From a virus, in IMG/VR virus record IMGVR_UViG_3300020579_000028, positions 1 through 32,974 of that record: a stretch of DNA of 32,974 nt; one strand, given 5' to 3'. This document shows positions 10,785 through 21,944 of the stretch, piece by piece. The notes under the pieces were generated by a model, which was not told the origin of the DNA, made no database searches, and worked only from the letters and a program-made list of their open reading frames with translations. Both the position numbers and the translations under genes were made by a program. How positions within the stretch are numbered: position 1 is the first letter of the stretch; every line of letters starts with the position of its first letter.

Positions 10785-12198
10785 TACCGCCCTCCTTCCG
10801 AAGTACCCATACGTGGACTAGTCGATCGATGATTTCGTCTACCTGCTGGGCGTCTTTAAGACTGTTGAGGATGAAACGAATTTGTTGGGAGTTGAGGCGA
10901 TGCTGCAGTTTACGAATAAGAGATGAATGATGAATAAACCCGCCACTAGCTCGAATAGTACCAAGGACCAATTCCTGATCAATCCCGCTTTCAGTCTTGA
11001 ACATCTGCTTGAGTATGGTTGGGTAGAACGTTTCCATCCAATCCATAATAGCGATAGCCCGCTGAAAGCAATCAAAACACACAACCAGATTATGGTGCGT
11101 AGCAATATGCAAACACATTGCGACTCTGATAACATGCTTGTCCTTTCTCTGGTAGAAGTTCTTCATCAGTTCGCTTTCTTGATGTTTGCCGCGAGCAGTG
11201 AGGTCTTCATACCACTGCTTGAACTTGCCCGCTGTTTCCGCATCGAGAGTTACTTCACCTGCGAACTCGTGGATTCGAGCGAGGTCTCCGATGAGGGTTT
11301 CTCTAATACGGCTCGAGCCGGGGCGCGGTATAGGCTCAGATCTTGGGGTACTCTCTTGTACAACGAGTATATGCCTCGCAACAAAGCCCCCATCAACGAT
11401 ATCCTTTGGAGTATTGTTAATGAACCATTCCGGAGTGGAACACATAAGGGTACTGATACACACGTCTCGTAGTACAACTCTTCCTCGACCGATTGTCTTG
11501 GAGTCCCATATGTCAGGGCAGTCAAGGAGGCGGGTAATGAGTGGAATTGCACCTTCCATATACTTCTGTTTCCCCAATACCGCGGCCAGTTCGGGAGCAT
11601 AAATAATACCCTGCGCCATGTCCTTCATATCATCCACGAGCGCCTCAGGTGTGAGCCTTTCTGCGTAGATTTTGGTTACTTCCAACTCCTGCAACATACT
11701 TACGATGATGTTGGTGGCTGAGGTTTTCTTAAGACCCGACGGGCCCAAAATGATGATCCCAAGGTTAGGAAATAACTTGAAATAACCCATCTCGAACCAC
11801 ACCCTACGATTAAGAGTACTGCCGATCCCAAGCAGAGCGCAAAAGAGATGATAAGCCAACGGCGCTTCAGAATGGGAGGTGTACTCCAAATAGCGATGAA
11901 TAAACCCGTCAGTAGGGCAAATACTTCGTAGCTCCTTCTCAATCTCTTTTGGGTCACGTTGGGGTTCTTCATGGCCGTTCTCCTCTCCAACTAGTTCTTT
12001 GGTAAACTCCTCTTCGGTAATACTAAAGCAGGTGTAGATCAGTCGTTTAACCTCTGCCTTATCCCTTTCATTCAACATCCCAGGAAAGTTCCCGACCCAC
12101 GTCAACGCCAGCTTAAACGCAGGGTGAGTCTTCGGCAGTCTCTTATCCCTCAGCAGCGACTTAAACTTATCCAATTGTTCCAGAACGTTGGGAGCCAT
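10774..12198 (-). CDS. DUF3987-like primase/helicase ATPase
   Basis: 474 residues. A Walker A motif GPSGLKKTS at 152-160 follows the segment LFPNLGIIIL, the arrangement found in DUF3987-type replication ATPases (LYPNLYVLLVGPSGSGKS). YAPELAAVLGKQKY corresponds to the helicase segment after Walker A, and ISTLMCSTPEWF resembles Walker B/sensor 1. The N-terminal 100 residues are helical and may be a remnant primase-linker or loader domain. The protein probably unwinds DNA at the phage fork with the adjacent UDG-PolA fusion. It overlaps the polymerase gene by 32 nt. Confidence 0.65.
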   Translation of the reverse strand: MAPNVLEQLDKFKSLLRDKRLPKTHPAFKLALTWVGNFPGMLNERDKAEVKRLIYTCFSITEEEFTKELVGEENGHEEPQRDPKEIEKELRSICPTDGFIHRYLEYTSHSEAPLAYHLFCALLGIGSTLNRRVWFEMGYFKLFPNLGIIILGPSGLKKTSATNIIVSMLQELEVTKIYAERLTPEALVDDMKDMAQGIIYAPELAAVLGKQKYMEGAIPLITRLLDCPDIWDSKTIGRGRVVLRDVCISTLMCSTPEWFINNTPKDIVDGGFVARHILVVQESTPRSEPIPRPGSSRIRETLIGDLARIHEFAGEVTLDAETAGKFKQWYEDLTARGKHQESELMKNFYQRKDKHVIRVAMCLHIATHHNLVVCFDCFQRAIAIMDWMETFYPTILKQMFKTESGIDQELVLGTIRASGGFIHHSSLIRKLQHRLNSQQIRFILNSLKDAQQVDEIIDRLVHVWVLRKEGGNAT

Positions 12199-14620
12199 AT
12201 TGTGCGATCCAGTCCTCGTAAGCTATGACATCATTCCAGTTTGGCAAACCCGTCTTACTGGTTTCCTTACTCCCAATCTTTAACGTCGCTGTGAAGAAGA
12301 AATTGTCCATTTCTGGTACGGGTCGCTCCATACACTCTCTGACGTAATCTCCAACAACAGCAGCCTTGGATCGTGGTCCACAGGCAGCGACTTGGTCGTG
12401 AACCGTAAGCATAAGGCGACTATCGTAAGCAGGAAGGTCTCTGCCCAATGGTACCAAAGCATTTTGAATAAGAACGTCAGCGGCATTGCTTTGACCTGGG
12501 AAAGCGAGTATCTCATTACGGAGCATTCTAACGTTGGGGAACCAGCGTATGCGTCCAAAGAAATTCTTGAGGTGTCCATTCTTATAAGCCTCCGAGATTA
12601 ATCGTGTGTGGAGCGCCGAGATCGCCCAGTGCTCTTTGAAGAAGTTGTCGTACATTTTGAAGGCTTTGTCTTTTGCGATACCGAACCCCTTTTGGAGCGA
12701 GTCAGCTTGTCGACCGTAGAGAAGTCCCAAAGGCCCACTCTTGGCGACAAGGAGTTCCCAGGGTTCGACGCTACTGCGACGATACTGTTTGAGAGGCGGG
12801 CGCCCTTGCTCAAAGAACGGTTTCTGGAAGATCTCTTCGTAAAAGAGACCGTATAGATAAATTCCATTCCGCTTTGCTTCAAGTATTGGTTTATCCTGCG
12901 CCGCGTACCCGTAGACAAAGAACTCAATCTGTTCGAAGTCAGCGTGGATAACAACTTGTGTATCGGGGAAATCGGGGATAACAATTGATCTTGGAAATAT
13001 GCCCCCAATTTCTTCTGGGATATTTTGTAGATCTGGATCTTTAGCTTGTAAACGGCCCGCGCGTTGGCCGACAATGGATACTTGGGCATGTGCCCTCCCA
13101 TCTTCTGCGTAGAAGTATGTAAACTCTTCGCTCTTCTTCAGCGTACGCATCTCTCGAATCAGTAGTGCTGCTTGACTCTTGTTCTGTGTGATGTATACTT
13201 CCAATGCATCGTCATCGACGGTCTGGCGACGAACCTTCTTTTTAGTACCCTTGACCGCAACCATGTTATACTGAGGTTTGTATCCCAGCGCGTTAAAGAA
13301 CTCCATCAGTTGCTTAGGGCTGGACCACATCACCATCGGGTTGAGCTTGTTCCAGATTTCGATATACTTCTCCAGCGCCATAGAACACTGCAGCTCCATT
13401 CGCTGGGCATGCTCAGTATCACAATTAACCCCTTGTACACGCATCATCTCTACCACTGGCCATAGATCCATCCCATGTTCCCAGAACAACTTACTCATCC
13501 CCCTTGCTTCGAGCTCCTTAACGGCTTCTTGTACAACCCATAGCGCTCCGAAAGTATCGTAGGCATTGTAGAGATTGGGATCTCGTTGGGCGAGGTTTTT
13601 AGTAAAGGGACAATCTGTAAAGACCGACATAGCTGTTCCCAAACTTTTTGAAGTCGCGTCAGAGTAAAGGAAGTTGAGGGCCAGCATTCCATCAGCAGGA
13701 CGAATCCCGGAGAGATCAAAGTGGGTGGCGAGGTGATAACCGTCAAATCCCCAGTTAAAGACACAACATATTGGTTTCCTTGCACGCTTGCCTTCGAACA
13801 GCGGAACGAGGAGTGGAAAGAGGCTGGCAGGGACGCCAATCGATTCCCCGAGATCCGCTGAGAGACCGATAACTTGGATCTCTGTCTGACCGGAGATTTG
13901 GCCGGTGCGGTCTTCCTCTTCGAAGACGTCGTCTGGGGTTTCGATATCACACCCGAACCACCCTTTATCAAGGATTTTTTGTACATAGTCGATTACATCC
14001 CTTTCGCTTGGTTGGTAGTTAGTAACGATGTGATCCCAAACCGGGAAGCCTTTACCATCGATCCACCGTTTGACTTTGGCAAGATCTCGCTCAAAGAACC
14101 AGGTGTCACGAAACCCGGTTCGGAGTAAGTAGGATGGGTGAAACAGTGGAATGATTATTCTCTTGCCTGTAATAGGAAACGGACAGCCTCTTAACCAGAA
14201 GCTGGGATCCTTGCGCGCTTTCTTAGTGATAACGGTTTGGAGATTTTTTCCGGTGAAAGTCTTAAAGGGCTCGCTACCGAGCGTAACAGTAATATCTGGA
14301 TTTCCCACTGCATCAAGTTCTTTATCAAGGAGGGGTTTACAGCAGCGAATCGCTTCCGGCGGTACAGGGGTTCCCGGCGGAACAAAGCAACGTACAAGGT
14401 TGGTAAGATATTGTCTGGAACGCTCAATACCCGCTGCTCTAAATCCGTTGTTGAGAGTGTTTCCACTTGGTCCACTGAATGGCACTCCTTCCTGGATTTC
14501 GTTTTCTGCTGGGCCCATCCCGATGAAGACAGCTTGGGGGTTAGGGCTCCCGGTTCCCCAAACTGGTCCTGGCGCGTCTTTAAGAGGGCATTGATGACAA
14601 AGGGGGCCTGGTTTACTCAT
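12167..14620 (-). CDS. Uracil-DNA glycosylase / family A DNA polymerase fusion
   Basis: 817 residues with three domains. Residues 1-195: family 4-type UDG with C8-x2-C11 and C78...C93 for a 4Fe-4S cluster, motif A GMGPAENEIQEGVPFSG (34-50) and motif B HPS (161-163). Residues 220-360: 3'-5' exonuclease with Exo I DIE (225-227), Exo II N-x3-D (288-292), Exo III Y-x3-D (350-354), so proofreading residues are present. Residues 370-817: polymerase A with GRLQAKDPDLQNIP (521-534), motif A HADFEQIE (Asp560), motif B K626-x3-L630-x3-Y634, and motif C VHDQ (Asp741). Compared with E. coli Pol I, position 762 is Leu, the Arg754 equivalent appears to be Leu, and the motif C Glu is Gln. It lacks a 5' nuclease domain. 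The ATG at 14620 overlaps the upstream stop by 8 nt. Confidence 0.88.
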   Translation of the reverse strand: MSKPGPLCHQCPLKDAPGPVWGTGSPNPQAVFIGMGPAENEIQEGVPFSGPSGNTLNNGFRAAGIERSRQYLTNLVRCFVPPGTPVPPEAIRCCKPLLDKELDAVGNPDITVTLGSEPFKTFTGKNLQTVITKKARKDPSFWLRGCPFPITGKRIIIPLFHPSYLLRTGFRDTWFFERDLAKVKRWIDGKGFPVWDHIVTNYQPSERDVIDYVQKILDKGWFGCDIETPDDVFEEEDRTGQISGQTEIQVIGLSADLGESIGVPASLFPLLVPLFEGKRARKPICCVFNWGFDGYHLATHFDLSGIRPADGMLALNFLYSDATSKSLGTAMSVFTDCPFTKNLAQRDPNLYNAYDTFGALWVVQEAVKELEARGMSKLFWEHGMDLWPVVEMMRVQGVNCDTEHAQRMELQCSMALEKYIEIWNKLNPMVMWSSPKQLMEFFNALGYKPQYNMVAVKGTKKKVRRQTVDDDALEVYITQNKSQAALLIREMRTLKKSEEFTYFYAEDGRAHAQVSIVGQRAGRLQAKDPDLQNIPEEIGGIFPRSIVIPDFPDTQVVIHADFEQIEFFVYGYAAQDKPILEAKRNGIYLYGLFYEEIFQKPFFEQGRPPLKQYRRSSVEPWELLVAKSGPLGLLYGRQADSLQKGFGIAKDKAFKMYDNFFKEHWAISALHTRLISEAYKNGHLKNFFGRIRWFPNVRMLRNEILAFPGQSNAADVLIQNALVPLGRDLPAYDSRLMLTVHDQVAACGPRSKAAVVGDYVRECMERPVPEMDNFFFTATLKIGSKETSKTGLPNWNDVIAYEDWIAQYGSQRSGTIG

Positions 14621-15039: not shown

Positions 15040-15591
15040 TCACGGGCGGCCTGCCAGTTGAAAGAAGCGACTTTCCATCTTCGGGTCATCGCGAAACGCG
15101 CCCTCGAGGTGATAAGTCGTAAAATCGCCAGGTGAGCGGACACCCCTAATTTCAGTACAACCATGCTTGCCCGATACCAGACAAGCCACATCCTTAACTC
15201 CGGATACTTCGCTTTGCAGACGAGCCACCGCATCTCGAGTAAATCCCTCTTGGAGAAGAGGTCGAGTATTACACTCGTCAAGCACCCGGATAAGCTTGCT
15301 AAGCCCAAGCACCTCACCAGCTGGAATGTAGGCAAGGGAAACAGTAAAGCGAACAGGTAGAAGATGATGGGGGCACATACTGTAAAGTACATGGCCCTTG
15401 AGCATGATAAAATCCGTGAAGTCTTCGGGAAACGTTGCATACTCGACTTCCTTCTTTCCAAACATCTCAACGTAGAGGCGAGCTACGCGCTCCGGCGTGT
15501 CGATGAAGTTTCGATCGGCTGGATCGATGTTGAGGCCTTTGAGGATTTGGCGAACGCCTTGTTCGATGAGTCCGTTGTTAATTGGTTTCAC
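15040..15591 (-). CDS. folE: GTP cyclohydrolase I
   Basis: 183 residues, close to the length of compact FolE. It converts GTP to dihydroneopterin triphosphate, the first step toward preQ0 (and folate). Conserved features: DRNFIDTPERVARLY (26-40), MCPHHLLPV (72-80, Zn ligand Cys73 and catalytic-type His75/His76), GLSKLIRVLD (96-105) with TRPLLQEGFTRD, and the second zinc cysteine in KHGCTEIRGV (His143, Cys145). GTG start at 15591 overlaps the upstream stop (GTGA), with GGAGG 4 nt upstream. Co-occurrence with queD/E/C and dpdA indicates DNA modification rather than folate supply. Confidence 0.93.
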   Translation of the reverse strand: MKPINNGLIEQGVRQILKGLNIDPADRNFIDTPERVARLYVEMFGKKEVEYATFPEDFTDFIMLKGHVLYSMCPHHLLPVRFTVSLAYIPAGEVLGLSKLIRVLDECNTRPLLQEGFTRDAVARLQSEVSGVKDVACLVSGKHGCTEIRGVRSPGDFTTYHLEGAFRDDPKMESRFFQLAGRP

Positions 15592-15866
15592 AGTGCCTCC
15601 ACAACGTCTTCGAAGATGAGATAGATCCAGGTAGCAGCTTTGACAAGCAACCGCATCCGAAATTGAGGGTTGGCTGGGTTCGCTCGAAAGAACTCTCCAA
15701 GCTTGAGTTTGATTTCACCTGTAGCGTGAGTGTAATCCCCGCCTGCGTTAGTTTCGAAGAACCCACCCTTCTCACCGTAGTGGGCTTTCTTCTCCTCGAG
15801 CATAGCGGTAATGGCGTCGAAGAACGCCTTGAGAGTGTCAGTTCGGTTTAATAATCGTGTACTCAT
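15588..15866 (-). CDS. Hypothetical protein (92 aa) upstream of folE
   Basis: Helical, mixed-charge protein from ATG 15866. Its stop overlaps the folE GTG by four bases (GTGA), so it is translationally coupled to folE. Segments ITAMLEEKKAHYGEKGGFF and GEIKLKLGEFFRANPANPQFRMRLLVKAATWIYLIFED suggest two long helices, reminiscent of small all-alpha phage proteins with a MazG-like look, but key acidic metal motifs are not evident. No family is assigned. Confidence 0.65.
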   Translation of the reverse strand: MSTRLLNRTDTLKAFFDAITAMLEEKKAHYGEKGGFFETNAGGDYTHATGEIKLKLGEFFRANPANPQFRMRLLVKAATWIYLIFEDVVEAL

Positions 15867-16137
15867 CCTTATCGTCTCCTGGGTGGGTCAGTTTAGACAG
15901 TTTGTCTTTGACTTCCTCGAACGCTAACATCGCCTCCTGCCGATCCTTATCCTGGCCAAGCTTGTTCCAGTGGTGACGCATAGTTTGACCGTTAAGGATG
16001 TTGAAGTATCCCACATCCCAACATTGAGTCTTGCCGTCGTAGTGGCTTCCCAAGAACACAATCCACTTACCCGACTGGCTAGTATATTTGGAGAGTACGG
16101 TCACCCCGTACTTGCTCGGTTGGAAACTCACCGGCAT
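15838..16137 (-). CDS. Hypothetical protein (99 aa)
   Basis: Start chosen at ATG 16137 (MPVSFQPSKYGV) because the upstream extension reads as low-quality Ser/Ala/Arg sequence lying over the neighbouring zinc-ribbon gene. AGGAGA and GCGAGG lie upstream. The N-terminal half is beta-prone with aromatic residues (SGKWIVFLGSHYDGKTQCWDVGYF), followed by a helix (RQEAMLAFEEVKDKLSKL) and an acidic tail. Unknown function. It overlaps both neighbours, typical of this compact operon. Confidence 0.55.
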   Translation of the reverse strand: MPVSFQPSKYGVTVLSKYTSQSGKWIVFLGSHYDGKTQCWDVGYFNILNGQTMRHHWNKLGQDKDRQEAMLAFEEVKDKLSKLTHPGDDKDEYTIIKPN

Positions 16138-16291
16138 AGAGCCTCGCTTTCTCCTCGTCACTGCGAACCAACCAGCACATGAAGTAACCGCAGCTCTTGC
16201 AGTCGTGTTTGACGCCGCCGGAGTAAAAGATGACACGAAGGGACTTAGCGCGCTTACAGTTTGGGCACTTCTCGAGTTCTAGGCCGCTCAT
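16079..16291 (-). CDS. Zinc-ribbon protein (70 aa)
   Basis: ATG 16291 overlaps the upstream stop (ATGA). Two cysteine pairs, CPNC (about 9-12) and CKSC (about 31-34), spaced by a short beta hairpin (SLRVIFYSGGVKHD), form a zinc ribbon. A third cysteine, FMCW, follows. Such small ribbons bind nucleic acid or partner proteins. The C-terminus overlaps the next gene by 59 nt. Function is otherwise unknown. Confidence 0.6.
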   Translation of the reverse strand: MSGLELEKCPNCKRAKSLRVIFYSGGVKHDCKSCGYFMCWLVRSDEEKARLYAGEFPTEQVRGDRTLQIY

Positions 16292-16620
16292 AGCAGCTCC
16301 AGGATCTGTTCTGGAGTTTCTATTACCATCCATTCACCGGTTGCGTGTTGGAGTACGGTGAATTCAGGTGGCATTTTATCATGAGCGCGTTGGTGAGCTG
16401 CTCTGGCTAGACGTTGAAGCTCTTTGGGCAGCTCTTCGGTTTCGTCGTCATCAATTTTGCAATCGTCCCGAATAACCCGCTTGAGAGAACTGAAAAGAAA
16501 CTCATCAGGGGTTATTCGAATATAAACAGGGAGTCCGCTAACAGCGCCCGTGAGCCGAAGATAACTCTTGGTCCTTAGCGCAGTCCCAGCACTTTGTGTA
16601 GCTGTACCGACAGTTTCCAT
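16288..16620 (-). CDS. Hypothetical protein (110 aa)
   Basis: Start placed at ATG 16620, preceded by GGAGG at 10 nt; an earlier in-frame codon at 16650 lies deeper in queE. The protein has a Ser/Thr/Ala-rich start, then SYLRLTGAVSGLPVYIRITPDEFLF, a beta-rich segment, and a helical section (EELPKELQRLARAAHQRAHD), ending in EWMVIETPEQILELL. It overlaps the queE 3' end by 46 nt. No family recognised. Confidence 0.6.
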   Translation of the reverse strand: METVGTATQSAGTALRTKSYLRLTGAVSGLPVYIRITPDEFLFSSLKRVIRDDCKIDDDETEELPKELQRLARAAHQRAHDKMPPEFTVLQHATGEWMVIETPEQILELL

Positions 16621-17313
16621 TGTGGGTATTCCTCCAGTAGTTTCATGCAAAGTTGGATGTTGTCTAGGTTCAAGCTGTTCTCATTGTTGATCGGTTGGAG
16701 ATACACGCGGTGGCTCTCAACCAGGCCAACGGGTAGGTTCTCGATTTTGAACTCGCTGTCCACGAGAAGCTTAATCTCGTCAGCTAGGTTCAGCATGTTA
16801 GGGTTTACTCCAACCTTAGGGCTAACACTGATCCAAACGTGACGATCACCCATTCCCCTACCGTTAGCTAGTTCGGCGGGTAGGATCGTCCCACTGGTCT
16901 CAATGTGTACCATCTTACGGAAGGAGTTAGCGTGTTTGATCAACTCGAGCAAGCCTTTATTCCAGTGGATAAGAGGCTCTCCACCAGTGATACAGATGTG
17001 TTCTTCGTGAGTGTCACTGATGAGGGTGTCGATCCCAACATCCTCGTACTTGTTGAAATCGGTATCGCACCAGAAGGGCCTTCCATCATACGTATGACAA
17101 ATCCACGCAGGCGCCCCTGTCTGAAGTATTGGAATGGGTCCCGCGGCTACTTCCTCATGGAGCTTGGTTCCCGGCGGATCATCTATTTGAGCTCGACGGA
17201 GTAGCTTGCCTACCGAGCACCCCGCCAGCCTAATAAAATGCATCGGTGTGCCCACCCACCGCCCCTCACCTTTGTATCGAGTGGAAACGTTCTGCTAATG
17301 GTAACGTGTTCAT
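16575..17313 (-). CDS. queE: 7-carboxy-7-deazaguanine synthase (radical SAM), split by a one-base frame change
   Basis: QueE turns 6-carboxytetrahydropterin into 7-carboxy-7-deazaguanine with SAM and a 4Fe-4S cluster. The annotated-looking body (16575-17255, 226 aa) begins at a GTG mid-motif. Upstream, ATG 17313 has a strong ribosome-binding site (GGAAGGGAG) and encodes MNTLPLAERFHSIQ, then AGG and TGA (17266-17268). Skipping one base (17271) joins SIQ to GEGRWVGTPMHFIRLAGC, recreating the conserved QueE N-terminus SIQGEG...GTP...R..GC. The full product would be 245 residues. Cysteines follow C-x39-C-x9-C, ending WCDTDF, an expanded version of the usual C-x3-C-x2-C. ICITGGEPLIH and HIETSGT match the SAM-binding GGEP and later conserved E-T-x-G motifs. 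Either +1 programmed frameshifting, a real mutation, or a sequence error; see findings. Confidence 0.85.
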
Positions 17314-17333
17314 AACTCGGATCTCCCTTCCAA

Positions 17334-17744
17334 TTAAGGTCGCTCGTGACGTAGAGCTTTAATGCGGCCAACAATTTCGAGAATGCGATCGGAAGACGTT
17401 AGGTTCTTTTTGCCTTGACCTTGGTTGTTGTTGCAGTACTCTAAAAGAAGTTCCGCTTCTTCCTTCTTTGAGATTAGATAAGGTAGAATACCCTTCAATA
17501 CTTTAGAGATTGTAGGAGTATCACTCCAGTGAGTCGTGAAACAGTTACTCCGGTTACTAGTGACAATTTGGTGCGCACCAAACCTATCGTGAACGAAAGC
17601 GTGGAGAGCAAGACTCTGGTTTGCGAATTGGATCCTCGCGTGAGGATAACCGTTCGAACCGATAATTAAGCTGATACAGCCGTCAGCTTCAATCAATCCC
17701 GCTAGGAACGCCCACTCTTCCGCTAGTGGTAGCGTTGTCGACAT
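17334..17744 (-). CDS. LAGLIDADG-type homing endonuclease
   Basis: 136 residues from ATG 17744, with AGGAGAAACGAG upstream. A single motif FLAGLIEADGCISL (about 12-25) matches LAGLIDADG with the catalytic acidic residue retained. The following segments (YPHARIQFANQSLALHAFVHDRFG, CFTTHWSDTPTISKVLKGILPYL) match the alpha-beta DNA-binding fold of such enzymes. One motif means it should act as a homodimer. It is free-standing (no intron or intein flanks recognised) and lies between queD and queE, 20 nt before the queE ATG, suggesting a selfish insertion in the preQ0 cluster. The C-terminus is complete. A longer upstream start (17846) is unlikely, as it lies inside the HNH gene. Confidence 0.85.
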   Translation of the reverse strand: MSTTLPLAEEWAFLAGLIEADGCISLIIGSNGYPHARIQFANQSLALHAFVHDRFGAHQIVTSNRSNCFTTHWSDTPTISKVLKGILPYLISKKEEAELLLEYCNNNQGQGKKNLTSSDRILEIVGRIKALRHERP

Positions 17745-18018
17745 CTCGTTTCTCCTGTGCTCGCTTCTTTGCGTGGTATGATCTGTGACAGCTCGAATGA
17801 CAAGGAGCAAGGTTTTGTGGGTCGTTATTCTCCCTGTTCTCGTCAATGTGATGCAGTGTTATCCTAACTACAATTGCCGAATGTCGTCTGTGCCCGAATG
17901 TCTCAGCGGGTTCAGCCGGCATGAGAGGTCGTCGGCAGAACACACAACTAATTCGAGGGAGTATCCAACGGAGAAACTCTCTCGACTGTTGTAGTTCAGC
18001 CTTAGTGGCACTATTCAT
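17689..18018 (-). CDS. HNH homing endonuclease
   Basis: 109 residues from ATG 18018 (AGAGG upstream; a GTG two codons earlier is in frame). It contains CVFCRRPLM (zinc CxxC), LHHIDENRENNDPQNLAPCHSSCHRSYH, where HH..DENRENN is the HNH core and CxxC supplies the second zinc pair. Such free-standing nucleases spread themselves by cutting cognate sites. Its 3' end overlaps the LAGLIDADG gene by 56 nt, and its start overlaps the queD stop by 8 nt, so two nucleases of different families are stacked between queD and queE. Confidence 0.85.
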   Translation of the reverse strand: MNSATKAELQQSREFLRWILPRISCVFCRRPLMPAEPAETFGHRRHSAIVVRITLHHIDENRENNDPQNLAPCHSSCHRSYHAKKRAQEKRDVDNATTSGRVGVPSGID

Positions 18019-18469
18019 GAACACCTCTGTCGAAGTCAGCCCGGTTCAACACACAGCTGCTGGTGCAGGTTTCGTTGAGCCGAAGTTGATGCCAATCCAA
18101 CCCACGTTCAAGCAACCGCTCTCCTATCCAGACGATAAGGTTCTCGCTGGAGGGGTAGAAGTTCTTCGACAGCCCTGGCGCAGCCCAGTTCTCGTTATGT
18201 TCAAGCAGCCAGTCAGTACTCAGATCCAACATCTGAAGAGGAATATCCCACGAGCCCAAGTGCCTATGATCCAGCTCCTCAATCAGCGGATTGACCTTTG
18301 CACTCAACTGACCGTAATCCATCACGAATCCGCTGTCGTGGTGAACTGAGCCCTGTACCGTTACTTCCAACCTCCAGCTGTGGCCGTGAAGCCTCGAGCA
18401 CTTCCCCGGATGCTTGGGAAGTATGTGCGAGGCCTCAAACCTAAACTCCTTACTTATAGTCATCTCCAC
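18011..18469 (-). CDS. queD: 6-carboxy-5,6,7,8-tetrahydropterin synthase
   Basis: 152 residues. QueD converts the FolE product to 6-carboxytetrahydropterin. Motifs: FEASHILPKHPGKCSRLHGHSW with zinc ligands His15, His28, His30 and catalytic Cys24; MDYGQLSAKVNPLIEELDHRHLG; PSSENLIVWIGERLL (normally PT-x-E-N); and LNETCTSSC near the end. The normal LDHxxLN is LDHRHLG here, a small deviation. GTG 18469 chosen because AGGAG lies 7 nt upstream; ATG 18463 would be too far. Its start overlaps the small membrane gene, and the next gene starts inside its 3' end. Confidence 0.92.
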   Translation of the reverse strand: MEMTISKEFRFEASHILPKHPGKCSRLHGHSWRLEVTVQGSVHHDSGFVMDYGQLSAKVNPLIEELDHRHLGSWDIPLQMLDLSTDWLLEHNENWAAPGLSKNFYPSSENLIVWIGERLLERGLDWHQLRLNETCTSSCVLNRADFDRGVHE

Positions 18470-18596
18470 TGGGTGTCTCCTGTTGATTTGAGAGGGCCCC
18501 TCTTCGGAGCCCCCTTTCCTTGGCCCGCTTGACCAACTTCGTCTCCAAGGCTATGGTGAATACTACCCATAGCACAGGGATTAGGATGATCGTCAC
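18450..18596 (-). CDS. Small single-pass membrane protein (48 aa)
   Basis: A GTG at 18596, two bases after the upstream stop, opens a frame encoding a hydrophobic segment at residues 3-17 (IILIPVLWVVFTIAL) followed by a strongly basic stretch (KLVKRAKERGLRRG) and a polar tail, ending inside the queD start. Topology would be N-out with a positive cytoplasmic tail by the positive-inside rule. No family recognised. An alternative frame here (18460-18651) gives a proline/basic sequence with no coding look and is rejected. Confidence 0.55.
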   Translation of the reverse strand: MTIILIPVLWVVFTIALETKLVKRAKERGLRRGALSNQQETPSGDDYK

Positions 18597-18598
18597 GG

Positions 18599-18985
18599 TT
18601 AGTTCTTTGGCCCGTCCTGCATGCTGCGGATGTTGTACGGGGCGATCTCACTGCGCTTCTCCCCGTCGTACATCTTGTGAGTTACCTTGACCCAGCATTC
18701 ACGCCCGTTCAACTCCAGCGGCTCGTGACCTTCGGGCCCCGGCGTATAGCCGCAGGCTTCGTAGTACGCCTTCAGCTTGGCCAGCGCATGAGATTGGAGG
18801 GAAGGGTTGTCCCAGACCGTACGACCTACGTGGGGTTCGTTCTGGACTTTCATCCACAACGCCCAGGTTGGTTGGTTGGATCCGGACATCCTTTCTTCGC
18901 CCTTCTCAATTCGGACGTGGTACCAGCCTTCTGGTAACAGGTCTCCGAACTTCTCCACCTTGCTCATGTCTTGTTGGTAGGGCAT
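18599..18985 (-). CDS. DUF669-like phage recombination-associated protein (ssDNA-binding candidate)
   Basis: 128 residues from ATG 18985, with AAGGAGACTAAC upstream. Pattern FGDLLPEGWYHVRIEKGEERMSGSNQPTWALWMKV, then GRTVWDNPSLQSHALAKLKAYYEACG, then LELNGRECWVKVTHKMYDGEKRSEI matches the DUF669 layout (LPEGxYxVRI, G-xxVWDN-xL, helix, then G-x-V-x-V beta strands). DUF669 genes typically sit next to Sak4 recombinases and Cas4-like nucleases, as here, and are thought to bind single-stranded DNA; the role is by context. Confidence 0.7.
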   Translation of the reverse strand: MPYQQDMSKVEKFGDLLPEGWYHVRIEKGEERMSGSNQPTWALWMKVQNEPHVGRTVWDNPSLQSHALAKLKAYYEACGYTPGPEGHEPLELNGRECWVKVTHKMYDGEKRSEIAPYNIRSMQDGPKN

Positions 18986-18990
18986 TTTAG

Positions 18991-19221
18991 TTAGTCTCCT
19001 TGGTTTTTGTTGTTTAGGTTGTGTTTCTTCTTCATTGAGTCGATCTCCATGCGTACAGCGTCACGGGCGATCGGTTCAAACTGGGTTGAGGCAATATCGT
19101 AGTTGGAGTTGATCTCACGAATGACAGGGGCGGTCTCCGGAGAAATCCCTCCGCGAGTCATCGTGATGTGGAGTTTGGGCCAGTCTTCGTCGTCAATCTC
19201 GATATGGATTGCGCTACGCAT
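18991..19221 (-). CDS. Hypothetical protein (76 aa) between Sak4-like ATPase and DUF669 gene
   Basis: Start placed at ATG 19221, overlapping the ATPase stop by 8 nt; a longer in-frame start would lie deep in that gene. Beta-prone N-terminus (RSAIHIEIDDEDWPKLHITMTRGG) followed by helical, basic C-terminus (RDAVRMEIDSMKKKHNLNNKNQ). It may belong to the recombination set by location. No family recognised. Confidence 0.6.
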   Translation of the reverse strand: MRSAIHIEIDDEDWPKLHITMTRGGISPETAPVIREINSNYDIASTQFEPIARDAVRMEIDSMKKKHNLNNKNQGD

Positions 19222-19978
19222 GAGCAGCGGCCTCCAGGAGTTTAACAAACCTATCGTACTCAGCGGTGTCTTCGCTCTCGACCCGCTCGATGGTAATCTC
19301 ACTGCCAGGTTCGGCAGCTTCCTTACTGATAGACTCCGTGCCCCGATCCACGTCTATGATATAGATTGGACGAGGGAAAGTAAGTAAGGATCGAGTCTTT
19401 CCAATTCCCGCGGTCCCATAGATAAGTGTAAGGTACGGAGGGTTCCAGTTACATGACGGGTTCGCGGCAGCGAGTTTCGCAACTTCGGCGTAATCAGCCG
19501 GCAAGAGACCCGACATGATTTGTGTGGCGTTGAATCGATCCTTGACGACCCAATCATCACCCCCGCCTCCGAGAGCTTCCGGACGAGCAATCCAAGTCGT
19601 CTTACCGTTGACTCGTCTAACGTGAAAGACATTGTCAACTGCACGCATTACCTCCTCGGGACATGTTCTGCCAGGCAGGTCTGGCATTCCCTTTACTGCG
19701 ATGGGTTCTTGAACCGGTTGGCCTTTGGGAGTGATAACTCCACCACGAGCGTAGACCTTTTCGATTTGTTCGTGGGCGGTGATAACAACGTTAATCCCCA
19801 AGGTTTTGTAGTCTTTCATCCGCCGGACGACCATGTTGATTCGCTCGGTCGTTCCGGGATAGTCGTTGACTTGTCGGATCTTTTCGAGATCCTTGGCCGA
19901 CTTCCCCATAGCTTTGGCGAAGGTCAGCCTTGCCCATTCACTAGCTGAGTCAATGGCGATGGTTTTGTACTTACTCAA
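19214..19978 (-). CDS. Sak4-like RecA-fold ATPase, circularly permuted
   Basis: 254 residues. The N-terminus starts directly at a Walker B-like strand (YKTIAIDSASEW, 4-15), followed by RRMKDYKTLGINVVITAHEQIEK (sensor strand), PDLPGRTCPEEVMRAVDNVFHVRR and DDWVVKDRFNAT (141-152), the usual C-terminal part of Sak4/AAA_24-type ATPases. The Walker A motif GTAGIGKT (188-195) with FPRPIYIIDVDRGTESI lies near the C-terminus, where a normal protein would start. So the order of the two halves is swapped. Sak4 proteins are single-strand annealing or RecA-like recombinases. A DUF669-like and a Cas4-like gene nearby support this role. TTG start at 19978 overlaps the upstream stop (TTGA), with AGGAGG 4 nt upstream. 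Confidence 0.78.
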   Translation of the reverse strand: MSKYKTIAIDSASEWARLTFAKAMGKSAKDLEKIRQVNDYPGTTERINMVVRRMKDYKTLGINVVITAHEQIEKVYARGGVITPKGQPVQEPIAVKGMPDLPGRTCPEEVMRAVDNVFHVRRVNGKTTWIARPEALGGGGDDWVVKDRFNATQIMSGLLPADYAEVAKLAAANPSCNWNPPYLTLIYGTAGIGKTRSLLTFPRPIYIIDVDRGTESISKEAAEPGSEITIERVESEDTAEYDRFVKLLEAAAHA

Positions 19979-20115
19979 TCTTCCTCCTCGTCGTCTTCAT
20001 CTTCTTCGTCCTCGTCTTCGTCGTCTTCCTCTGACAAGGGAATGAGTTCATCATCTTCATCAACGAGTGGGAAATCGTTCTCCCGATCGATAGTACTTTC
20101 GTCGTTAAGCCTCAT
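19975..20115 (-). CDS. Very acidic small protein (46 aa)
   Basis: Start placed at ATG 20115, with GGAGG 11 nt upstream; a longer in-frame start (20178) lies inside queC. The last 20 residues are almost entirely Asp/Glu (SEEDDEDEDEEDEDDEEED), preceded by FPLVDEDDELIPLS. It overlaps queC by 11 nt and the ATPase start by 4 nt. A poly-acidic protein next to recombination genes might mimic DNA or compete for ssDNA-binding sites, or act as a C-terminal-tail-like interactor; these are guesses. Low sequence complexity also makes a purely compositional origin possible. Confidence 0.5.
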   Translation of the reverse strand: MRLNDESTIDRENDFPLVDEDDELIPLSEEDDEDEDEEDEDDEEED

Positions 20116-20752
20116 ACTGAGTTGGGTCCTCCACTCCTGCGAGTTTGAATGCTTCTTTACGTTCAACACACGTCCCACACTTACCGCAGTGGAGCAGTTT
20201 ACCTTTGTAACAGCTCCAGGTTAGTTCGTAGGGAACTTTCAGATAACTACCCGCTTTGACAATATCGGCCTTGGAGCTGTTAACGAACGGAGCGATGAGT
20301 TTGACGTGCTCCCAGTTACCTAGGTGGATTGCACTGCCAAGAGCTTGGATGAAGTCGGGTCGACAGTCAGGGTAGATGGTATGGTCACCGGCGTGAACAG
20401 CGGTGTAGACTGATTTAGCTTCGGTTGAGATTGCCCACCCCGCAGCGATGGCTAGCATAATCATGTTACGGTTGGGAACTACTGTTGTCTTCATATTCTC
20501 CGCAGCGTAGTGGCCCTCGGGTACTTCTTGGAATCCTGTTTGCGAACCTTTCGCTAGAAGGTGAGAGATGCCTCGCACGTCAGCGATTTCGAACTCAACA
20601 CCCGCTTTGGAAGCTAGGTGGGAAGCGTGATCGATCTCGGTGACGTGGCGCTGACCGTAGTTGAAGATCAGCGCTTTGACGTTAGGCTTGAGCTGCCATA
20701 ATAGGGTTGTGCTGTCAAGCCCCCCGCTAAAGAGTAGTATTGGTTTTGTCAA
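20105..20752 (-). CDS. queC: 7-cyano-7-deazaguanine (preQ0) synthase
   Basis: 215 residues. QueC makes preQ0 from 7-carboxy-7-deazaguanine using ATP and ammonia. The N-type PP-loop LLFSGGLDSTTLLW (6-19) binds ATP, and the zinc site near the C-terminus is SCYKGKLLHCGKCGTC. Also typical: FNYGQRHVTEIDHA and VVPNRNMIML. TTG start at 20752 overlaps the stop of the small zinc-ribbon gene (TTGA). No QueF, ArcS or glutamine-amidotransferase domain follows, so preQ0 is the last recognisable intermediate in this window. Confidence 0.93.
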   Translation of the reverse strand: MTKPILLFSGGLDSTTLLWQLKPNVKALIFNYGQRHVTEIDHASHLASKAGVEFEIADVRGISHLLAKGSQTGFQEVPEGHYAAENMKTTVVPNRNMIMLAIAAGWAISTEAKSVYTAVHAGDHTIYPDCRPDFIQALGSAIHLGNWEHVKLIAPFVNSSKADIVKAGSYLKVPYELTWSCYKGKLLHCGKCGTCVERKEAFKLAGVEDPTQYEA

Positions 20753-20916
20753 TTGACTGCCTCCGTTGCATCAGGTAACATTCCAATCTTCTGCCCGCAC
20801 TTCGAGCATTTGATCCCCCGCCAGATGTGAGTTTCGTCCCCCTCACCTTGTTCCTGAGTATGAGGTTGAGTTCGATCGATTGTGAGAAGTCCTCCACAAC
20901 TTTCGTGGTATAGCAT
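20749..20916 (-). CDS. Small zinc-ribbon-like protein (55 aa)
   Basis: ATG 20916 overlaps the Cas4-like stop (TAATG), and the stop TGA overlaps the queC TTG. The sequence reads MLYHESCGGLLTIDR, a polar centre, then WRGIKCSKCGQKIGML. One CxxC pair (CSKC) plus the N-terminal H-x2-C form a possible zinc site. It lies exactly between two real genes with overlaps at both ends, which supports it as a gene. No function assigned. Confidence 0.6.
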   Translation of the reverse strand: MLYHESCGGLLTIDRTQPHTQEQGEGDETHIWRGIKCSKCGQKIGMLPDATEAVN

Positions 20917-21875
20917 TACTTGGCCTCCAGGATTTCAGCGTAGGTTTTGTTAACATAGTCGTCTTCGCGTTGGGCGAACTCACCATCAGCGATCTCACCG
21001 TCACGTTGACACAGGTCGAAGTAGTAGCATCGGCGGTTGTAATCCGTGCAGGACTTCGGGTTCAGATACCATCGATCTCTCACAAAGGCGTCTTCGTAGT
21101 CTTCTGCGACTTGGGTAAGCTCACGCTCAAAGCGAGCGAGTCGAGCATCTGTGACAAGGAAGGGCTCACGTTCAGGTGGTGGCACGTAGAAAGGATTTGC
21201 AGCATTCTTTCGAGGCTTGAGCATACGTTCGAGAATAAATCCGTGCGGTCGAAGACCCGCTTGTTTCCACATTCCGTAGATGTAGCCCACCGGTTGGTTG
21301 TCAAGCCTCCATTGGTCCCAAAAGGTTTCTCTCGGATCACTACTTGTTTTCCTTTCCAGCAGCCAGACGAGGTTATCCCACGAGAGGACTGCGTCGGTTG
21401 TGCCTACGAACCAGATTGGTTGTTGGCACCGTTCGTCGAAACAGGTAAGGTGAAGGTCGTGTTCGTGAGTACCTTTGGGGTAGAGGAAGTGATGCATGAA
21501 AATACAATGATGCTTGCTGTTGGGCATGGGTACTCGAAACTTAACCTCAGGCTTCAGCACCACCCAGTTGTCCTTCTCATACTGGTTAGCTTGGGCGTCG
21601 AGAAGTCGGTTGACCATCGCGATGGATTGTTCCATCAAGACGTTCTCTTCGGGAAGGTACAGCACTCCTTCTCGACGAGTTCGAATTTCCGCCTCAGCTG
21701 CTGCTTTGGCAGCGTTACGATCTTTAGTAACAACTAGTACCGCAGCACCTTTGTGGTAAGCACCACCTTCGACTAAGGGATCAGCGTCTCGCTTAGGCAC
21801 GAGTCGCCTAATATCCCAGTCGAAGGCCTTTTGGCGACACTGTTGGAACTGTGCCGCTCGGCTGATGTTGATTAT
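20916..21875 (-). CDS. Cas4/RecB-like PD-(D/E)xK nuclease with iron-sulphur cysteines; non-AUG start
   Basis: Frame start is about 21875 (ATA, 9 nt after AGGAGG at 21885-21890) or ACG 21878 (6 nt). The only upstream ATG (21932) lies above the transcription start of promoter P1, within the -35 region, so it cannot be used on that transcript. The resulting protein has about 319 residues: SRAAQFQQCRQKAFDWDIRRL with the first cluster cysteine, GTTDAVLSW (metal Asp) then WLLERKTSS (E-x-K) for the nuclease core, and C-x8-C-x5-C (SCTDYNRRCYYFDLC) near the end, as in Cas4/AddB-type 4Fe-4S nucleases. Probably makes 3' single strands for the Sak4-like recombinase downstream. Confidence 0.8.
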   Translation of the reverse strand: MINISRAAQFQQCRQKAFDWDIRRLVPKRDADPLVEGGAYHKGAAVLVVTKDRNAAKAAAEAEIRTRREGVLYLPEENVLMEQSIAMVNRLLDAQANQYEKDNWVVLKPEVKFRVPMPNSKHHCIFMHHFLYPKGTHEHDLHLTCFDERCQQPIWFVGTTDAVLSWDNLVWLLERKTSSDPRETFWDQWRLDNQPVGYIYGMWKQAGLRPHGFILERMLKPRKNAANPFYVPPPEREPFLVTDARLARFERELTQVAEDYEDAFVRDRWYLNPKSCTDYNRRCYYFDLCQRDGEIADGEFAQREDDYVNKTYAEILEAK

Positions 21876-21903
21876 CGTGGGACACCTCCTGTGATGTTCA
21901 ATG

Positions 21904-21944
21904 ATTATATCATGAAACGCAAAGTAAATCAAGGCCCACTTGGA
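21904..21944 (-). promoter_or_regulatory. Promoter P1 with upstream CCAAGTGGG box
   Basis: On the minus strand, -35 TTGATT (21927-21932), 17-nt spacer, -10 TATAAT (21904-21909). Directly upstream (21933-21944) is TCCAAGTGGGCC, a version of the box shared with P2-P5. It drives the Cas4-like gene and the recombination/modification/replication run downstream. The box is also the distal arm of the terminator of the preceding gene. Confidence 0.75.

Follow-up and report, generated by a model that had tools for sequence, protein, structure and literature searches.

The window analysed here is a stretch of 32,974 nucleotides, positions 1 to 32,974 of the virus record IMGVR_UViG_3300020579_000028 from IMG/VR. 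On its minus strand it carries a gene for a relative of the phage recombinase Sak4, an ATPase with a RecA/Rad51-type core, in which the two halves of the core stand in swapped order; we refer to it as cpSak4 (circularly permuted Sak4). The open reading frame (ORF) at 19214-19978 was confirmed and encodes 254 amino acids (aa) at 19217-19978, with a TTG start at 19978 and the stop at 19214-19216. As the initial annotation had proposed, the TTG (19978-19976) overlaps the TGA of a small acidic ORF upstream; an AGGAGG-like ribosome binding site precedes it.

Residues 1-172 (19463-19978, minus), which here come first, correspond to the C-terminal portion of conventional Sak4 proteins, from the Walker B strand to the last helix. 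This assignment is based on matches to phrog_124 (108-215) and AAA_24 (63-140) and on a model compared with RAD51. The Walker B strand YKTIAID lies at residues 4-10 (19949-19969, minus), a position that the initial annotation had given correctly but without strand, and its D10 is invariant in permuted and conventional Sak4 proteins. The K-x-R finger KDRF (residues 146-149; 19532-19543, minus) aligns with K229/R231 of phage 52A Sak4. Residues 170-182 (19433-19471, minus) form a linker between the old C-terminal helix and the Walker A strand, modelled with a predicted local distance difference test (pLDDT) score of ~90. The ordinary N-terminal part, comprising the Walker A strand, P-loop, second strand and helix, is placed last at residues 183-254 (19217-19432, minus) by profile match and rotation scan. 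It contains the Walker A motif GTAGIGKT (residues 188-195; 19394-19417, minus), close to the C-terminal end as previously stated.

Sequence evidence for the swapped order

The only family that exceeds the Pfam cut-off for cpSak4 is AAA_24 (PF13479), which matches the protein as two swapped stretches (best: residues 2-80 to profile positions 63-140, E 8.9e-15). PHROG 124 (Sak4) likewise matches the native protein as two swapped stretches (E 2.2e-25) and the rotated protein as a single one (1-200 to 43-215, E 3e-29). The N-terminal half is thus AAA_24/phrog_124 and not part of another family, and neither a second Walker A motif nor a second AAA_24 piece was found upstream or elsewhere in the record. 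For a rotation scan, cpSak4 was rotated in silico at every second position and scored with a hidden Markov model of 16 conventional Sak4 sequences. The best-domain score of 43 bits for the native order increased and levelled off at 94.2-94.5 bits with cuts anywhere in residues 156-182, and it dropped once the cut entered Walker A; shuffled controls (n=100) reached at most 6.5 bits. The claim that moving the last ~75 residues to the front restores the ordinary Sak4 order therefore holds, and the swapped-order Sak4 signal is far beyond chance.

Both halves of cpSak4 match the Sak4 profile and Walker A, Walker B and K-x-R are present, but Walker A does not precede Walker B, which makes cpSak4 a permuted derivative of the Sak4 family rather than an ordinary member. 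An alignment of rotated permuted and conventional Sak4 sequences showed invariant columns for the Walker A Gly and Lys, the Walker B Asp and the K-x-R pair. A profile of mixed rotated and conventional sequences matched the phage 52A Sak4 structure (PDB 8rc5) with E 3.6e-12 and aligned K-x-R to K229/R231.

Permuted homologues and gene neighbourhood

Homologues in the same order, whose existence the initial annotation had regarded as telling, were detected in 17 IMG/VR contigs; they are colinear with cpSak4 and 48-61% identical to the window protein over most of its length. Fourteen are complete, one carries a frameshift (L005), one an in-frame TGA (L009) and one is cut by the contig end (L028). 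An additional fragment lies at the edge of contig L050. The frameshifted gene (L005 5986-6751) has LAGLIDADG-like ORFs on both flanks, and L009 is interrupted by a single TGA in place of a conserved Trp (L009 6394-6396). A PF13479 search of 20 records revealed no second Sak4 in the permuted contigs, the permuted gene standing alone in each of them, and matched the conventional controls L011 and L018 as one full-length piece. Permuted-order relatives were absent from the cultured-phage, plasmid and genome collections (84,980 genomes); all permuted members are metagenomic.

In the closest comparable pairs dN/dS (the ratio of nonsynonymous to synonymous substitution rates) is ~0.02-0.1, with dS at least 1 and dN 0.02-0.24, and nonsynonymous change is similarly low in both halves of the protein. 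A tree of 15 complete permuted and 16 conventional Sak4 sequences placed the permuted ones in a single clade (support 99/99), whose sister group is unsure owing to long branches. The start codons are TTG, GTG or ATG, and the ribosome binding site often falls within the last part of the gene upstream. Where the 5' end is complete, members start within a few residues of the Walker B strand, with the exception of L026, which has ~14 extra residues. A stop stands directly before the ATG in L005 and L027, and at most two open codons precede the start in L009, L010 and L024. These stops, 0-2 codons upstream, exclude a hidden in-frame Walker A at the N-terminus in the five loci. Purifying selection and the conserved operon context support the earlier view of cpSak4 as a settled arrangement, and the gene is accordingly not a broken one.

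The order of this replication cassette is nuclease, QueC, cpSak4, DUF669, QueD, QueE, FolE and a uracil-DNA-glycosylase-PolA fusion in every contig that is long enough, with small or endonuclease ORFs interspersed. The nuclease is an exonuclease by its PHROG match (phrog_1218; 20916-21932, minus) and lies upstream of QueC. The DUF669 protein (18599-18985, minus) shows a weak match to families of phage single-strand-binding proteins (SSB) and is likely the single-strand-binding partner of cpSak4. Between the two genes, a small ORF of ~76 aa (18994-19224, minus) overlaps the end of cpSak4; it recurs in several related loci, belongs to no family and might encode a further partner. In conventional phages, Sak4 adjoins nuclease or replication genes and precedes an SSB or DUF669 protein, and cassettes of the type nuclease-Sak4-SSB/DUF669 are found in L011, L029, L033 and L037-L039. 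The permuted gene fills the Sak4 slot of this cassette. QueC is inserted before cpSak4, whereas no QueC is found there in conventional cassettes, and LAGLIDADG ORFs lie near or adjoin cpSak4 in L001, L002 and L005. A search via the polymerase revealed no close conventional-order sister with the same cassette: among close relatives, those that contain the region have the permuted order, including the L050 fragment, and L053, a distant relative found in this way, has the conventional one.

The small ORF upstream of cpSak4 (19975-20115, minus) lies between QueC and cpSak4 and encodes a very acidic product of 46 aa from its ATG; it was not recognised elsewhere among the loci examined. QueC, QueD, a QueE-like radical-SAM protein and FolE (15040-20752, minus) constitute a 7-deazaguanine set that is split by cpSak4 and DUF669. 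The set is retained in nearly all permuted contigs and likely serves DNA modification. The uracil-DNA-glycosylase-family domain fused to DNA polymerase A (12167-14620, minus) also occurs in conventional-order relatives such as L011.

Predicted structure, mechanism and origin

AlphaFold2 modelling of the native order with 18 alignment rows gave the compact fold that had been anticipated, a single domain with pLDDT 84.7 and a predicted template modelling score (pTM) of 0.83. Its weak part, residues 74-82, may be a DNA-binding loop. Residues 1-165 of the model superposed in VIA-align on RAD51 210-335, the part of the core that begins at Walker B, with Z ~5 against a noise guide of Z 8 for this program, a root mean square deviation of ~3 and ~115 residues. 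Uridine monophosphate kinases, the top VIA-align rows (Z 7.5), also fell below the guide and were not used. In BFVD one significant match was found (A0A516LUR7, E 2.6e-6, TM 0.46), for which the chain order could not be checked. The model supports a single Sak4-like domain into which the two halves would fold in cis.

We therefore consider it very probable (about 0.85) that cpSak4 is a natural circular permutant of Sak4 in uncultured bacterial viruses, with the mechanism and origin outlined here. Sequence and prediction show that the chain runs from the Walker B strand through the rest of the core and the old C-terminal helix, crosses a linker of ~10 residues into the Walker A half and ends one helix past the last strand of that half. 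The protein is most likely a functional ATP-dependent single-strand annealing recombinase, with a presumed mechanism like that of HK620 Sak4, which requires ATP to bind and anneal single-stranded DNA and whose activity its SSB stimulates (PMC5928155). The conserved residues and the studied Sak4 proteins suggest that cpSak4 protomers polymerise on single-stranded DNA and that each ATP sits at a subunit interface, bound by the Walker A/B site on one side and by the K-x-R finger of the adjacent subunit on the other. K229/R231 contact the ATPgammaS of the neighbouring protomer in the filament of phage 52A Sak4 (PMC11846896; PDB 8rc5). The nuclease encoded nearby would supply the complementary strands that cpSak4 anneals, probably together with the DUF669 protein, in recombination-dependent phage replication or repair.

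The permutation could have arisen from a tandem duplication of an ordinary sak4 in which the two copies became fused, copy 1 losing its first half and copy 2 its last, presumably once in the ancestor of the phage clade. Homing endonucleases may have helped, since QueC now lies between nuclease and sak4 and LAGLIDADG genes recur at the site. Segmental amplification in phages can be driven by such endonucleases (PMC13096335).

Several observations weigh against a permuted, functional Sak4 of this origin. No duplicated intermediate was found. The rotated window protein alone had no match in PDB, and the match to 8rc5 rests on a profile containing conventional sequences and not on permuted ones alone. 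For the full-length native model, neither Foldseek (with either model) nor VIA-align detected a significant order-preserving P-loop match in PDB, which is expected for a permutant yet provides no positive evidence. Finally, L002, L008 and L010 have E or K instead of Gly at position 6 of Walker A, a replacement through which some permuted members may use ATP differently. Walker A lies within the last 80 residues of the protein in these three contigs. Position 6 is Glu in L002 and L009 (the L009 frame being read past its stop) and Lys in L008 and L010, all in one subclade; the relative L007 retains the Gly.

The chain order could also matter for the filament itself. Termini at the Walker B edge and a tethered Walker A lobe might alter how the filament is built, for example through domain-swapped, interlocked protomers, so that the permutation would be non-neutral; we regard this as unlikely, although it would, if true, set these filaments apart mechanically as a class of their own among those of Rad51-type recombinases. 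A swap proper, in which the C-terminal Walker A lobe completes the core of the next protomer and yields an interlocked filament or obligate oligomer instead of a cis-folded monomer, appears quite unlikely. Sak4 is filament-forming (PMC11846896), the lobe hangs on a linker and a monomer prediction is compatible with swapping, but AlphaFold2 closes the domain in cis with high scores for the linker, and the Walker A strand follows the old C-terminal helix after only ~10 residues.

It is decidedly improbable that cpSak4 is a decayed relic that lacks ATPase activity and is retained in a structural or regulatory role. The frameshift in L005, the in-frame TGA in L009 and the replaced Walker A Gly point in that direction, but purifying selection is strong on both halves, Walker A, Walker B and K-x-R are intact in the window protein and most permuted members, and cpSak4 is the sole Sak4 of its contigs. 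There is very little to suggest that the swap exists in DNA only and that the product regains the ordinary order through RNA circularisation, trans-splicing or a split intein. The LAGLIDADG-type ORFs that adjoin the gene in several loci belong to genes that often travel with introns or inteins, but no Rfam match, and hence no known intron or other RNA, was found in the window, L001 or L002; moreover, the start codon stands directly behind the upstream gene with the close stops described for five loci, an ordinary stop closes the frame and the next ORF overlaps cpSak4. An assembly artefact or chimera, which the exclusively metagenomic origin of the permuted members might suggest, is negligible given 17 separate, colinear contigs that share order, start site and cassette at the stated identities, and together with purifying selection these contigs led us to reject a chimera or broken gene.

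Comparison with known systems

Few ATPases are as conserved as those with RecA/Rad51-type cores, and to our knowledge no RecA or Sak4 core has been found permuted. The open-licence literature searched, as far as its texts were accessible, describes no circularly permuted Sak4 or RecA core, an absence that is weak evidence; the permutation in cpSak4 is apparently previously undescribed. A phage clade that has retained it offers a natural test of whether filament formation and annealing depend on chain order, N-terminal arm and folding path. The case also indicates that annotation pipelines can report two partial matches for one intact enzyme.

cpSak4 shares with the Sak4 proteins (PHROG 124, AAA_24 PF13479; HK620, phage 52A 8rc5) the Walker A, Walker B and K-x-R motifs, a continuous match after rotation, and gene neighbours such as the nuclease, SSB or DUF669 protein and PolA. 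In contrast to these proteins, its Walker B half comes first and its Walker A half last, and a short linker takes the place of the ordinary N-terminal extension before Walker A. The predicted core resembles that of RAD51/RecA in the superposed region; however, cpSak4 is permuted and consists of the core only, with no separate N- or C-terminal DNA-binding domain. Among P-loop NTPase domains, a circular permutation that is natural and conserved is well documented for GTPases, namely RsgA/YjeQ and RbgA/YlqF (PMC6912228). Those proteins are TRAFAC GTPases of ribosome assembly, a class to which cpSak4 does not belong, AAA_24 alone passing the Pfam cut-off, whereas cpSak4 is a RecA/ASCE-type ATPase with a predicted role in phage recombination.
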